Of a stretch of DNA of 5,862 nt, positions 1 to 5,862 are shown piece by piece (the first letter of the stretch is position 1; each line of letters begins with the position of its first letter). Under the pieces are notes generated by a model. That model was not told the origin of the DNA. It did no database searches and was given only the letters and a program-made list of their open reading frames with translations. The DNA lies in NCBI GenBank assembly GCA_016763895.1, contig JAESSV010000279.1, positions 1 to 5,862 of the forward strand, read 5' to 3'. Source of the DNA: Magnetovibrio sp. Lineage in GTDB: Bacteria > Pseudomonadota > Alphaproteobacteria > Rhodospirillales > Magnetovibrionaceae. Made by a program: the position numbers and the translations under genes.

Positions 1-733
1 ATCGATAAAGATAAAATCAAAAAAATCAGGCGGGATTTTTTCGTTATAAACAACGGGGACGGATTCTTTAGCCTGTACCATTTCTGCTGGCTTGATTTCT
101 TCTACCGTTGAACATTATAAAGCTCGGTAAACTTGCGATTATCATCATTTGGCACATAGGACATAAGATCTTGTTCGGCCTGTTCACCCAAATTCTTAGT
201 ATCCACCAAAAACAAGATGCGTTTGGCATCGCCGTGTTTGAGCAATCGGTACATGGACGTAATTGCGGTAAAGGTCTTACCCGCCCTGGTCGCCATTTGA
301 ATGAGCGCACGGGGGTGATTGTTTTGAAATGAGGCTTCAAGGTTTTCGATTGCTGTTATCTGGCAATCGCGGAGGCCTTTGTGATTGAGCGGCGGGATAT
401 GTTGTAAGCGTTCAAGCAAGGATGAGCCGTGCGCCATCCATTCTTGAAGTGTTTTGGGTTGGTGAAAGTTAAACACTTCTCTGGAACGGGGTTTGGGGTC
501 GCGCCCATCGGTAAAGTGGGTGATAACGCCTGTGCTTTCATAAACGAACGGCAAGGGCTCACTGTTTTTCACCCATTTAAGGTTTGCCCCGGCATATCCC
601 CCGATTGCTCTTCAACCGTGGTGATTTTATGGCCCCAGTTCTCGGGCTTGGCCTCGATAACGCCAACGACCTCTAGCAGGAAATCTATATTGTCGCGTGC
701 CAATTGTTCAGGGATTTGATTTATGTCAGCCAA
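1..733 (-). pseudogene. hsdR: Type I restriction enzyme R subunit (HsdR), decayed and 3'-truncated by the window edge
   Basis: HsdR is the motor and nuclease subunit of type I restriction-modification complexes. The likely original start is a TTG at 733-731, with GGAGG (743-739) five bases upstream. It opens with a PEQLARDNIDFLL segment typical of the N-terminus of one HsdR group. At about 668-673 the reading jumps directly to VVGVIEAK, so about 45-50 residues usual in the family, including the acidic half of the nuclease motif, are missing; the ExK half (EAK) remains. At a run of five G (minus strand; 602-598) the frame shifts. The next frame carries PFVYESTGV, the LRDCQ-x-AI segment and Walker A-like ATRAGKT. 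A TAG at 104-102 ends that frame, and a third frame continues with PPDFFDFIFID toward the DEAD-box motif II at the window edge; the link between YNVQR and this part is also deleted. Motif order follows the HsdR family. Several independent lesions make a functional product very unlikely. No hsdM or hsdS is in the window. Confidence 0.88.
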
Positions 734-743: not shown

Positions 744-860
744 CCCTATTCCTTTATTGTGTCCAGAACGCACCCTTTTCAGTATGGGAAATTCTGATAA
801 ATCGCAAGTTGTTCATGGTGATGAAATTACTCGCCTAAACCTGTATCAAAAATGTCGCAT

Positions 861-1011
861 AACATTCATTTCAGAAATAAAATGCACTTATTAAAAATTT
901 ATTTTGGAAAGGCTCATGTGGGGTCATTTGGGGTCATAAGATAGCAGGAGGTACAGGAGATAGCTGGAGTTGTCACAACGCCCTGTTTCTGTCCATTTCA
1001 GCCATTTGACA
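861..1011 (+). promoter_or_regulatory. Module A: repeat-rich leader of the relaxase gene
   Basis: In order: an AT-rich inverted repeat (AATAA 876-880, loop AATGCAC 881-887, TTATT 888-892); three GGNTCAT direct repeats at exactly 10-bp steps (911, 921, 931); GATAGCAGG (940-948) inside a GCAGGAGGTA string (944-953); GATAGCTGG (959-967); a short inverted repeat GTTG-TCA-CAAC; and a perfect -35-like TTGACA (1006-1011). A -10 is not clear: TATGTA at 1028-1033 has a 16-bp spacer but matches consensus poorly. The same parts recur in the same order in module B (4304-4444), with the AATGCAC loop ending 24 bases before the first GGTCAT-type repeat in both. I infer a shared regulator or replication/partition protein. 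The rest of 734-1064 shows no gene. Confidence 0.6.
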
Positions 1012-1051
1012 CGCCAAAACTCCCGCCTATGTACGCTCTATAACGATTGAA

Positions 1052-1057
1052 AAGGAG
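1052..1057 (+). promoter_or_regulatory. Ribosome binding site deciding the relaxase start
   Basis: AAGGAG sits 7 bases before ATG 1065 and only 1 base before ATG 1059, and overlaps the codons that would follow TTG 1047. The good site supports 1065 and shows that the shortened gene still has a normal initiation signal. Confidence 0.7.
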
Positions 1058-1064
1058 CATGATT

Positions 1065-1982
1065 ATGGCGAAAACAAAGCGGAAACTGGTTGGGGGGTGG
1101 CTGTTGCCTGAGGAAAAATCGGAAGTGGATACCCTTCAGGGTATTGAGTGGGAATTTGCACAAGCGTTGGAATTTAGCGATCATCCACGCGTGGTCGGCA
1201 CTCATGACAATACGAAAAATTTCCATATGCATGTGGGATACAGCCGCATTCATCCCAAAACCCATAAGGCGCATTATCCAAGTTGGGATTTTCACGCTTT
1301 GGGAAATACCTGTCGTGCCATGGAAGAAAAATACGGATTAAAAGTTGATCTTGGCCCCAAAGACAAACAGAAAACGGATCAAATGCCACGAGCCGCCCGT
1401 GACAAGGAAGCCCACAGTTGGGAACAAAGCTTTTACAGCTATGTCCACTGCCATAAACCACCCCTGATGGATGCGTTAAACAAGGCCAAAGGCTGGCAAG
1501 ACTTACATACGGCCTTTGCCAAGCATGATTTGGTTTTGCGAAAGCGAGGAAATGGCCTCATCATCGAAAATCGCCCGGCCAATCAACACATCAAGGCAAG
1601 CGCGCTTGATCGCACATTTTCAAAAGGAGCCTTGGAAAAACGGTTTGGACCGTTTCAAGCCTCTGAAAGAGCTCCTGAACACACCAAAGCGACTTTTCGC
1701 TATGGTCGTAGCCCCCTCACCCGCCATCCCGATCAGGCAAGCCACTGGCATCGTTACCTGAAAACGCGTAATCAACCGGATTCCCTTGGCAATAAAGCCT
1801 TCAAAACATGGCGGGAATATTTATCGCTTGGGGCGATTGATGATCCGTTAGCAATTGCGATTATTCAGGCTCAGAAGAAACTCATGCAGACCTTCACGCC
1901 ACCGCCCAAAAAGCCGGAGATTAAGGCGATAAGCAACAAACCCAAAAGCGTCAAAGACCGAGATCAAGGCATGTCGCGTTAA
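1065..1982 (+). CDS. MOBP/TraI-type relaxase, N-terminally truncated
   Basis: A relaxase nicks one strand at oriT, stays bound to its 5' end and pilots it in conjugation. This 305-residue product carries the metal-binding three-histidine motif THDNTKNFHMHV (H47, H54, H56). It is followed by family landmarks of IncP-like TraI relaxases: RIHPKT (61-66), MEEKYGLKVD (86-95), an ARDKEAH-x-QSF stretch (111-123), GWQDLH (143-148), RGNGLII (161-167) and SKGALEKRFGPF (186-197). Family members usually begin about 75 residues earlier with a segment holding the catalytic tyrosine (motif I). Here the protein starts just before the beta strand leading to the His motif, and I find no such segment upstream in any frame. 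The C-terminus is also short and ends in a basic, proline- and lysine-rich tail. I chose ATG 1065 because AAGGAG (1052-1057) lies 7 bases upstream; ATG 1059 and TTG 1047 are in frame but badly placed. It is either a relic or a protein acting with a helper. Confidence 0.8.
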   Translation: MAKTKRKLVGGWLLPEEKSEVDTLQGIEWEFAQALEFSDHPRVVGTHDNTKNFHMHVGYSRIHPKTHKAHYPSWDFHALGNTCRAMEEKYGLKVDLGPKDKQKTDQMPRAARDKEAHSWEQSFYSYVHCHKPPLMDALNKAKGWQDLHTAFAKHDLVLRKRGNGLIIENRPANQHIKASALDRTFSKGALEKRFGPFQASERAPEHTKATFRYGRSPLTRHPDQASHWHRYLKTRNQPDSLGNKAFKTWREYLSLGAIDDPLAIAIIQAQKKLMQTFTPPPKKPEIKAISNKPKSVKDRDQGMSR

Positions 1983-2725: not shown

Positions 2726-2806
2726 CCGTTGAGCACAAAGTGCGAATAAGTATCTCAGCAAACTGCTGGGCAGGCGGATGGTGTTACACCATACATATCC
2801 TGCCCC
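2726..2806 (+). other. oriT: Origin of transfer (oriT), RP4/IncP-like
   Basis: Read on the plus strand: CCGTTGAGCAC (2726-2736), AAA, GTGCGAATAAG (2740-2750), 45 bases, then TATCCTG|CCC (2796-2805). As I recall it, RP4 oriT has the same CCGTTGAGCAC, a six-base loop, the same GTGCGAATAAG, 46 bases and the same TATCCTG|CCC nick core. Between the two blocks, RP4 has an unrelated-looking inverted repeat bound by TraJ. Here that place holds CAGCA/TGCTG (2756-2768) and a perfect 15-base palindrome ATGGTGTTACACCAT (2778-2792) ending three bases before the core. GGGCAGG (2768-2774) and CCTGCCC (2799-2805) add an outer stem over the nick. The predicted nick is between 2802 and 2803, so the transferred strand would enter by way of the ATPase gene, with relaxase and hsdR last. 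Confidence 0.82.
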
Positions 2807-4097: not shown

Positions 4098-4123
4098 AAT
4101 GAAATTTATTTTTCACGTTGTCA

Positions 4124-4183
4124 GGAGATAGCTGGAGTTGTCTAGAGATAGCTGGGCTTAGCTGAAGATAGCTGGATCTGTCA
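4124..4183 (+). repeat. Three 20-bp direct repeats with GATAGCTGG core (iteron-like)
   Basis: GATAGCTGG occurs at 4127, 4147 and 4167, exactly 20 bases apart, inside units GGAGATAGCTGGAGTTGTCT, AGAGATAGCTGGGCTTAGCT and GAAGATAGCTGGATCTGTCA. The stretch 4122-4142 is identical over 21 bases to 954-974 in module A, where a GATAGCAGG also lies 19 bases upstream. Unit length and spacing are those of plasmid iterons or partition/transfer-protein sites. No replication gene is in the window, so the bound protein is unknown. The bases between here and module B (4184-4303) show nothing else I can name. Confidence 0.65.
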
Positions 4184-4303: not shown

Positions 4304-4444
4304 AACATCTCATTTTGAAAAAAAATGCACTTTTTTCAAATTAATTTTGCTGAGGTCATACGGGGTCATAAGAGGTCATAAGGGTTCATGTGGTGGCAGG
4401 AGGTATCATAAGGCGTTGTTTTTGCTTATTTTATACATTTGACA
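4304..4444 (+). promoter_or_regulatory. Module B: second copy of the repeat-rich leader, before the 60-residue gene
   Basis: Parts in order: a perfect inverted repeat with arms TTTGAAAAAA (4314-4323) and TTTTTTCAAA (4331-4340) around the loop AATGCAC; GGTCATA at 4354, 4364 and 4374, then a diverged GGTTCAT at 4383, in 10-bp phase; the string GCAGGAGGTA (4396-4405); GGTATCATAAGG; and TTGACA (4439-4444). A weak -10 (TACCTA, 4462-4467, 17-base spacer) may complete a promoter. The AATGCAC loop and the 24 bases from it to the first repeat are shared with module A, though the stems differ in sequence and length. First repeat to TTGACA is 85 bases here and 95 in module A, one helical turn apart. Confidence 0.6.
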
Positions 4445-5237: not shown

Positions 5238-5462
5238 ATGTCTGACGCATTATCACATAGTATGTATTTTATCGGTTACGGGACAACCCTTGGCTTGAGT
5301 GGCCTGCTGGCTTATTACGCGATGAAGGTGCGCTTAAAAAATGAAGGCACCCCTATTTCTTATGGCTTTTTAAAAGTCATCTTCTCCGCATCTGCTGTTA
5401 TGTGGGCTGGCGTTGGCGTGAGCTACGCAGTTTACCAGGCCACACCCGACACCTTTGTTTAA
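5238..5462 (+). CDS. Small membrane protein with two predicted helices (74 residues)
   Basis: Family not recognised. Two hydrophobic stretches are seen, about residues 9-29 (ending LSGLLAYYAM) and 43-67 (FLKVIFSASAVMWAGVGVSYAVY). They are joined by a short loop, KVRLKNEGTPIS, rich in positive charge, which by the positive-inside rule would face the cytoplasm and leave both ends outside. GxxxG-like spacing of glycines (GYGTTLG; GVGVSY) could favour helix packing. There is no cleavable signal peptide or lipobox. AGAGGA (5225-5230) lies 7 bases before the ATG, an acceptable ribosome binding site. It is transcribed away from oriT and alone; the leader holds a GGTCTAAGCT motif (5205-5214) also found at 5072-5081. 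No clear promoter was found. Confidence 0.72.
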   Translation: MSDALSHSMYFIGYGTTLGLSGLLAYYAMKVRLKNEGTPISYGFLKVIFSASAVMWAGVGVSYAVYQATPDTFV

Positions 5463-5463
5463 A

Positions 5464-5547
5464 CCAAACTGACATGAAACCCGGCGTCTCGCCAAACTGA
5501 CATGAAACCGGGCTATTCGCCAAACTGACATGAAACCGGGCTATTCG
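5464..5547. repeat. Three tandem 28-bp repeats between convergent genes
   Basis: Units start at 5464, 5492 and 5520, each beginning CCAAACTGACATGAAACC. Units two and three are identical over 28 bases; unit one differs near its end (CCGGCGTCTCG instead of CGGGCTATTCG). The array starts one base after the membrane-protein stop codon and ends inside the hairpin at 5536-5552, as if the front of a terminator region had been duplicated. Confidence 0.9.
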
Positions 5548-5552
5548 CCCGG
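5536..5552 (-). terminator. Hairpin between convergent genes, probable terminator
   Basis: CCGGGC (5536-5541) and GCCCGG (5547-5552) form a perfect six-pair stem with loop TATTC. On the minus strand the stem is followed by TTTC, a short T run, starting 4 bases past the stop of the gene ending at 5557. It could serve both converging genes, but the T tract is weak. Confidence 0.45.
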
Positions 5553-5556
5553 GTCA

Positions 5557-5862
5557 TCACGACGATCTTAAAATCTTCTTCACCCGGTTGGCCTGATCTA
5601 ACCTTGAAACGGTGGGCAGCCCATCGCTTCCCAACAAGGGCGTTAAATAGCTCATAAACTTGTCCGTCACATCATTTCCGTCGGTGTTGATCATGTTTTT
5701 GTCCATGACCTTGGTTTTCGCAGCAACGGCGGCAACGGGCAACAGTTTATATTCAACAGCATAATTCCCGGTGCGATGGATGGTCACGGTGCCATGCTTT
5801 TTTCCAGAAAAATGAGCGTATTGAACGGCTTTTTCGGCAACTTCGCGAGCCTCAATTTGGTC
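5557..5862 (-). CDS. C-terminal part of an unrecognised protein (5' end beyond the window)
   Basis: The frame is open from the right edge (first full codon reads D, then QIEAREVAEKAV) to a TGA at 5559-5557, giving at least 101 residues. A GTG at 5787 could start a shorter product, but the open, protein-like sequence upstream of it argues that the gene continues beyond the window. Seen: an N-terminal helix AREVAEKAVQYAHF, a likely beta strand pair GTVTIHRTGNYAVEYKLLPVAAV, then a helical, basic tail ending in RVKKILRSS. No membrane segment and no motif I can name. It converges on the membrane-protein gene, with the tandem repeats and hairpin between them. Confidence 0.65.
   Translation of the reverse strand, partial: DQIEAREVAEKAVQYAHFSGKKHGTVTIHRTGNYAVEYKLLPVAAVAAKTKVMDKNMINTDGNDVTDKFMSYLTPLLGSDGLPTVSRLDQANRVKKILRSS

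Follow-up and report, generated by a model that had tools for sequence, protein, structure and literature searches.

The gap between an antitoxin-like gene and an ATPase gene on a Magnetovibrio contig raises the question whether it holds a relative of the RP4 oriT, a workhorse of bacterial genetics, and whose enzymes would act on it. The window, i.e., the whole 5,862-nucleotide stretch analysed, is an entire contig (G000:C232); the MAG it belongs to is incomplete (59%) and split into 293 contigs. According to Pfam, the oriT-like site is flanked by a MazE/AbrB-type antitoxin-like gene (PF04014; 2389–2637, minus strand) and, on its leading side, by an AAA_14/DUF4143 ATPase gene (PF13173 and PF13635; 2885–4051, minus strand), which is also a PADLOC candidate (PDC-S01). 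The first-pass annotation had read the gap as an RP4-related oriT that keeps the hairpin and nic parts and has a different repeat. Our analysis supports this reading. From its sequence, the 2726–2816 site is predicted to be an RP4-related (MOBP-type) oriT of a mobilizable element.

All parts of the site lie on the plus strand. Block 1, CCGTTGAGCAC-AAA-GTGCGAATAAG, spans 2726–2750 and is predicted to form a hairpin as ssDNA. Its stem is composed of GCAC (2733–2736) and GTGC (2740–2743), and some compensatory stem changes are seen in relatives. The nic region TATCCTG|CCC (TATCCTGCCC) is present exactly at 2796–2805, and by analogy with RP4 only, the nick is predicted at 2802/2803. The two blocks have the positions, order, and orientation initially assigned to them, and the proposed one-base difference in spacing holds as well, with 45 nt in the window and 46 nt in a core identical to that of the IncP plasmid pBS228. 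In the ssDNA fold, the interval between block 1 and the palindrome contains a small hairpin, AGCA-aac-TGCT (2757–2767), and a left outer arm, GGGCAGG (2768–2774), which pairs with CCTGCCC (2799–2805) across the predicted nick. Within these arms sits a 19-bp near-palindrome, GGATGGTGTTACACCATAC (2776–2794), with seven of its eight outer pairs formed and one pair mismatched. The repeat originally delineated, ATGGTGTTACACCAT, was too small. The palindrome is the predicted site of a ribbon-helix-helix accessory protein. On the leading side, ACGAC is located at 2812–2816; with this motif and 7/8 palindrome pairs, the window site belongs to the class of sites referred to below as type B.

We searched for the two-block pattern GTGCGAATAAG-N25-55-TRTCCTGCCC, using the reversed pattern as control. 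Of 18 family genomes, five have the pattern, with twelve sites in total, and the control gave none in these 18 genomes. Among 385 genomes sampled evenly across the class, the pattern occurs solely in the window, and a contig collection of 84,980 species contains it in 117 stretches. The window and loci L027–L158 contain exact matches at 131 places, which amount to 87 distinct sites. Although it was not part of the search, the 5' half of block 1 (TTGAGYRC, one mismatch tolerated) is present in 83 of them including the window, 78 of the 87 having exact CGTTGAGCRC; the four sites lacking the 5' half resemble chance hits. The TATCCTGCCC word alone is not informative, as four occurrences were found with two mismatches allowed and 4.1 were expected. 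A plasmid BLAST (E up to 10) returned 26 records, whose best-supported match is block 1 alone, pYKBG036 being identical at 25/25 bases and pAKD4, among others, at 24/25; some of the remaining records match other parts and look like chance. No viral contig stretch has block 1. At 13 of 141 places, one core with a 46-nt spacer recurs, the 151-bp surroundings of which are identical to pBS228, where traJ-traI lies on one side of the site and a TraK-family gene on the other. Nine of the 13 are on 4650–4670-bp contigs from unrelated genera and are probably vector, and the shared core was counted as one distinct site. This core served as our yardstick for the RP4-type oriT. Two small plasmids, L155 (pZMO1) and L156 (pAK51), have block 1, a palindrome, and TAACCTGCCC; PLSDB types pZMO1 as non-mobilizable and pAK51 as mobilizable.

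A looser pattern including block 1 yielded 92 distinct sites, of which 25 are type B, defined by ACGAC or a one-base variant just after nic, and 67 are others. The split itself is by construction because ACGAC defines type B, while the remaining contrasts are independent of it; a single MAG contributes about 10 of the 25. A short palindrome, about 20 bp long and one base upstream of TATCC, has at least 7/8 outer pairs in 22/25 type-B sites and 3/67 others, a level reached by 74 of 12500 mononucleotide shuffles. These values are from a free-centre test, as a test with fixed 10-nt arms missed odd-centred sites (5/10 pairs in the window). In contrast, the long repeat is present in 56/67 others and only 2/25 type-B sites. 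A GGCAG, GCAGG, or GCAGA word occurs in 19/25 type-B spacers versus 8/67 others.

The gene surroundings differ in orientation. A relaxase relative (E<=1e-10) accompanies 9/25 type-B sites, one being the query's own locus, and all nine are on the trailing side and the same strand. Among the others, 35/67 have such a relative, 33 on the opposite strand and two on the same strand. TraK matches, with pAKD4 TraK as query, are on the leading side of 25 others and of no type-B site; absent matches may reflect short loci, many of which are at most 8 kb. DUF5338 beside two of the oriTs was considered as TraK and rejected, since pAKD4 TraK has no match there. At 13/25 type-B sites (two being the queries' own loci), the leading side has a serine recombinase gene in the same orientation, 11 of the 13 within 1 kb of block 1. 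Within 7 kb on the leading side, a tyrosine integrase is found at one of the 25 (L027), and the other 11 have neither recombinase nor integrase. Two of these 11 are the second, divergent sites of L032 and L045, where the serine recombinase gene sits on the trailing side. Trailing-side nikA genes, where detected at type-B sites, are 1.6–6.6 kb off and transcribed towards the site, and in several loci cargo separates the relaxase gene from oriT.

The named hosts in which type B was seen are Magnetospirillum, Magnetospira, Telmatospirillum, Thalassospira, Tepidicaulis, Magnetovibrio, and Rhodospirillales/Rhodospirillaceae MAGs; G006–G009 were tied to named records through identical DNA at L116, L121, L054, L122, and L132. 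Alphaproteobacteria have the other kind of site too, for instance in Sphingobium (L043), Gluconacetobacter (L050), Paracoccus (L144), Falsochrobactrum (L138), and a Hyphomicrobiales MAG (L038). Type B is a distinct oriT architecture, found here in Alphaproteobacteria, and does not cover the class. The literature surveyed, which includes PMC2831885, PMC12696120, and PMC11104534 in part and few subscription papers, holds no description of the type-B set in what it covers, which does not prove absence. Three loci have oriT-like pairs in opposite orientation (L032:11756-11993, L029:1843-2632, and L045:1202-1307) with block-1 starts 83–639 bp apart, and one member per pair has at least one base changed in GTGCGAATAAG. 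The oriT cores of L046 and L085 (Colwellia NORP201) are identical to those of L033 and L030 (a Rhodospirillaceae MAG that shares this NORP isolate series), which likely reflects misbinning, or else recent transfer.

We then inspected covariation in the block-1 stem and the palindrome. Across all 25 type-B sites, 87.5% of the cells are paired, compared with 70.1% in shuffles, and the covariation score is 0.343, compared with 0.097 in shuffles and 0.056–0.093 in slid controls. None of 500 shuffles reached either value. Five measures were computed, and two of them are weak with all 25 sites: both-side-change pairs were reached by 33/500 shuffles, and further pair types by 28/500. A first alignment of 23 sites gave 89.7% paired cells and a score of 0.354; it lacked L040 and one L030 site, both of which fail the palindrome test, as does only one further site of the 25. 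The window matches all 33 columns that are invariant across the other 22 sites of that alignment. Palindrome pairs 2 to 5 vary with compensation, and GTG/CAC hardly changes. Most sites preserve GCAC/GTGC of block 1, whose inner pairs are variable, being paired in some sites and unpaired in many (9/24 at columns 14/22, 5/13 at 15/21, and 5/9 at 16/20). Folds of seven of the 25 type-B sites as ssDNA have the block-1 hairpin in 7/7 and an outer stem including nic bases in 6/7, L084 being the one without. The fold z-score is -2.6 for the window and -2.5 to -6.6 for the other folded sites. The repeat thus covaries as a recognition palindrome would, and the exchange of this arm is not peculiar to one element, as the palindrome recurs in a 25-site set. 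For comparison of the NikA N-terminus with the palindrome, nine NikA-like proteins and pAKD4 TraJ were aligned, one of the nine being a fragment and two having many X, and we drew no code linking the two from this set.

The window has a relaxase-like gene of its own, and its structure bears on who would nick the site. A fusion ORF of 305 aa from the ATG at 1065 (1065–1982, plus strand) joins a NikA/TraJ-like start of about 21 residues (1065 to ~1127) in frame to a TraI-like relaxase part (~1132 on), which begins at about residue 86 of the L027 protein. It is on the oriT strand, about 740 bp before block 1. In Pfam, it matches PF03432 at positions 54–132 only, plus PF22863 TraI_middle. Against NF041893, the match begins at model position 80 and scores 219.9 bits, with a curated cut-off of 250, and the intact L027 relative scores 305.1 bits; this score and the relaxase-relative searches used the piece 1074–1982. 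At the DNA level, window 825–1127 is 87.5% identical to L027 8335–8637, and similarity picks up again at window 1132 and L027 9157, with about 515 bp missing in the window. Aligned with L027, the ORF lacks the segment of the motif I tyrosine (Y22 in RP4; PMC7314908) and retains the HMH of the metal motif; its open frame is 70% identical to L027 over 294 residues. The apparent ~515-bp deletion is read from one metagenome contig, and the window's own nickase is probably dead. The in-frame nikA-traI fusion ORF lacking the catalytic-tyrosine segment is new here.

L027 (G007) is intact in this respect. Its order is a repeat-rich leader, a NikA/TraJ-like gene, a short TraI (371 aa), a RelE-like toxin/HTH pair (assigned via clustering with L032 and L030 genes), and oriT, followed 3' of oriT by a second leader, a tyrosine integrase, and tRNA-Glu. 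The nikA-traI pair, oriT, the integrase, and the tRNA gene are all inside about 5 kb. The recombination gene is of the tyrosine type in L027 and of the serine type in L032 and L034. In L034, nikA is moreover preceded by a T4CP and an ArdC/Toprim protein, and oriT by a methylase and a restriction-enzyme-like gene. In the window, the interval between relaxase ORF and oriT hosts, besides the antitoxin-like gene, a Fic/Doc-family toxin-like gene (PF02661; 1979–2386, minus strand). This stretch carries cargo like an insertion slot in the window, L027, L028, L031, L034, and L036, the cargo types being toxin-antitoxin-like pairs, an ABC-3C-type gene, restriction-modification, and radical SAM; in L035, about 200 bp separate relaxase and oriT.

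Among the attributes of an integrative mobilizable element, the window has an oriT-like site, and no integrase or recombinase of its own was found by Pfam scans of nine ORFs and tblastn. In the nine scanned ORFs, relaxase and TraI_middle are the only conjugation families, and no Rfam RNA or tRNA was detected in the window. A repeat-rich leader with GGTCATAAG and GATAGCTGGAG words lies 5' of the fusion ORF (861–1011, plus strand) and is 70% identical to a second copy at 4304–4444 (plus strand); similar DNA is located 3' of oriT in L027 and L032, where the recombinase gene is next to it. A 21-mer of the leader is identical at window 954–974 and 4122–4142. In relatives, one leader precedes the relaxase operon and the other is on the integrase side, perhaps as sites for a common regulator. 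The PFK-like 3' end (5557–5862, minus strand) and ORF 5238–5462 match separate places in relatives, and the right end of the element was therefore left undefined.

Compared with the IncP-type (RP4) oriT, as represented by pBS228, pAKD4, pYKBG036, and the shared core, the window site shares block 1, the nic region, the 45/46-nt spacing, and trailing-side relaxase genes. It differs in that the short palindrome takes the place of the long (19-bp) TraJ inverted repeat, and type-B sites further differ in ACGAC after nic and in a relaxase gene transcribed towards oriT. Unlike pBS228, the window has neither divergent traJ-traI at block 1 nor a leading-side TraK match. IncP islands of Brucella, Burkholderia glumae, and others are reported to carry TraK, TrbJ, and TrbL, with a tyrosine integrase at guaA in Brucella (PMC5704250). 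They resemble the present elements in being integrated, in having an IncP-type MobP relaxase with a TraJ-like protein, and in extending to Alphaproteobacteria (PMC5704250). As to TraK, they differ, since pAKD4 TraK is unmatched in type-B loci. Precedents exist for IMEs without relaxase (PMC5704250) and for hitchers and iOriT (PMC11389934). The oriT subtypes of the staphylococcal pWBG749 family and SmpO likewise combine a constant core with a variable repeat arm for a ribbon-helix-helix protein, and plasmids carrying such oriTs are mobilised in trans; the hosts are different, and the evidence is experimental there and inferred from sequence here (PMC8136818). pPDL2 of Sphingobium fuliginis, compared by description, is an alphaproteobacterial plasmid/IME that has an oriT and was mobilised with a pRK2013 helper strain, its authors having detected no tra genes in it (PMC3516476). 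NZ_CP041019, another plasmid of S. fuliginis (ATCC 27551), has a site identical to L043, which is not type B. This 131-bp oriT piece is identical across Sphingobium, Sphingomonas, Sphingopyxis, and Tardibacter plasmids. M. gryphiswaldense pMSR-1 (NC_009353) is a further relative, with a type-B-like oriT 83.5% identical to the L084 site and a recombinase-family gene beginning 127 nt after nic. It differs in being plasmid-borne and in the last nic base (TATCCTGCCA), has no relaxase among the features listed over 15.5 kb of its sequence, and is outside the 25-site count. Type-B sites also offer a search key for mobile elements whose PLSDB type is non-mobilizable, pMSR-1 being an example.

Relaxase relatives occur in 7 of the 18 family genomes, the window's own included; back-translated patterns confirmed none in the contig collection. 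G007 has ten oriT-like sites, seven of them by the exact pattern. Three have relaxase sequence nearby (on C36, on C40, and as a fragment where C62 begins), and seven are on three contigs (C51, C96, and C113) without a relaxase match, although links between sites and relaxases may be missing because this MAG is fragmented. The conjugation ATPase family PF03135 was found in one of six genomes searched (G009; 25.9 bits, cut-off 21) and not in G000, G006, G007, G008, or G010, several of these assemblies being incomplete; any resident helper is thus hypothetical. T4CPs are present in three of the six (G006, G007, and G008). Among the best 25 of 3210 plasmid matches, the proteins closest to the short TraI are from Roseibium and Thalassospira, with 40–42% identity. 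In three fetched regions, traI comes after genes for a T4SS-family ATPase and a T4CP, a gene of DUF5710 or ArdC type, and small genes, an order resembled by L034. One small gene of the Thalassospira region is annotated ribbon-helix-helix, and VirB8/9/10-type genes are listed in L180. The link to these regions consists of relaxase and gene order only because the fetched Roseibium and Thalassospira regions have no site with both blocks. The earlier suggestion of an IncP-type helper with altered specificity finds no support in these data: the nearest kin have genes for both a NikA/TraJ-like protein and a short TraI in the same stretch, and the closest complete-looking transfer regions, among the best 25 of 3210 matches, are on the Roseibium/Thalassospira plasmids and not on IncP plasmids.

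Very probably, 2726–2816 is the oriT of a decayed integrative mobilizable element that would be nicked in trans by the TraI/NikA pair of a relative. Nicking in trans is likely because the window's relaxase ORF has no catalytic-tyrosine segment; lacking the front part of its relaxase-like gene, the element would borrow another element's enzymes and probably depends on other elements. From the observed sequences, their conservation and covariation, the gene order, and the fusion ORF, we infer binding, nicking, transfer, and a helper as follows. A NikA/TraJ-like ribbon-helix-helix dimer would bind the palindrome at 2776–2794 and position a MOBP TraI-like relaxase on TATCCTG|CCC, and the strand would be cut at 2802/2803. 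The 5' end would lead with the ATPase side, corresponding to the recombinase side in the kin, and the relaxase side would enter last. On ssDNA, the outer stem over nic and the hairpin of block 1 may act at termination or at second-strand start.

Two other accounts grant that the site is an oriT or its likeness. It might be a mimic served mainly by IncP plasmids, whose RP4-type TraI would read nic and hairpin. Block 1 and nic are indeed common to IncP-type sites, and the mobilisation of pPDL2 with the pRK2013 helper strain is a precedent (PMC3516476). The long TraJ repeat is, however, absent in the window as in nearly all type-B sites, RP4 TraI cleavage is reported to need TraJ bound at that repeat (PMC7314908), and several kin have NikA-like and TraI-like genes of their own, so we regard service mainly by IncP plasmids as quite improbable. 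The site might instead be a non-functional relic of an element from which the N-terminal relaxase part, most of nikA, and any integrase have gone, with oriT not yet decayed. The fusion ORF, the lack of a recombinase or integrase among the window's genes, and the mismatched palindrome pair speak for it, but a decayed site would sit uneasily with agreement at every one of the 33 invariant columns and with a relaxase frame that is still open. Present disuse seems unlikely to us, if appreciably less so than IncP service. It overlaps with the preferred reading, since it grants the identity of the oriT and denies only its present use, and the two are not exclusive.

The remaining account, in which the conserved blocks arose by chance or form a shared promoter or regulatory element instead of an oriT, has a negligible probability in our judgement. 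A chance origin is ruled out by the control of 385 genomes, where the window stands alone, together with the conserved unsearched half of block 1. The regulatory version has one point in its favour: the RP4 traJ transcript is reported to start 24 nt from nic (PMC7314908), and block 1 therefore presumably lies within the traJ leader there. A leader cannot be its only role, as trailing-side nikA is 1.6–6.6 kb distant in type-B loci and transcribed towards the site. Block 1 is also present in pZMO1, a 1680-bp plasmid with rep as its sole listed gene. Being kept under both circumstances, it seems to owe its conservation to the oriT itself. Candidate roles are second-strand start, termination, and relaxase recognition, in any of which it may take part. 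As block 1 is kept without adjacent traJ and shows some compensatory stem changes, a separate cis function becomes testable.

More broadly, and only tentatively, the type-B sites may belong to an addressable mobilisation network in Alphaproteobacteria. A hairpin-nic chassis shared with RP4 would be invariant in it, the palindrome would serve as the address, a few relaxase islands would move many elements without relaxase, and the block-1 hairpin would be a functional part of the oriT in place of the traJ leader expected from its RP4 position. The address would consist of four covarying base pairs, G-NNNN-GTG..CAC-NNNN-C, read by matching NikA/TraJ-like proteins. We hold this wider picture to be somewhat less probable than an even chance.

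Several minor features were seen alongside. At the left end of the window, 102–572 (minus strand) is a fragment resembling a type I restriction R subunit in its helicase part, and the adjoining ORF 569–733 has no match. Near the end of the PFK-like gene, 5464–5549 is a threefold 28-bp tandem of CCAAACTGACATGAAACC.. units. On the Roseibium plasmid NZ_CP045621, a possible distant oriT follows traI at L180:15862. Its parts, seen by eye, are GCGTTGAGTGTGAAGAAG, a hairpin, the palindrome CAGGGTCATAAATGACCCTG, CACGCCGGCCC, and ACGACAG, and its nic would differ.
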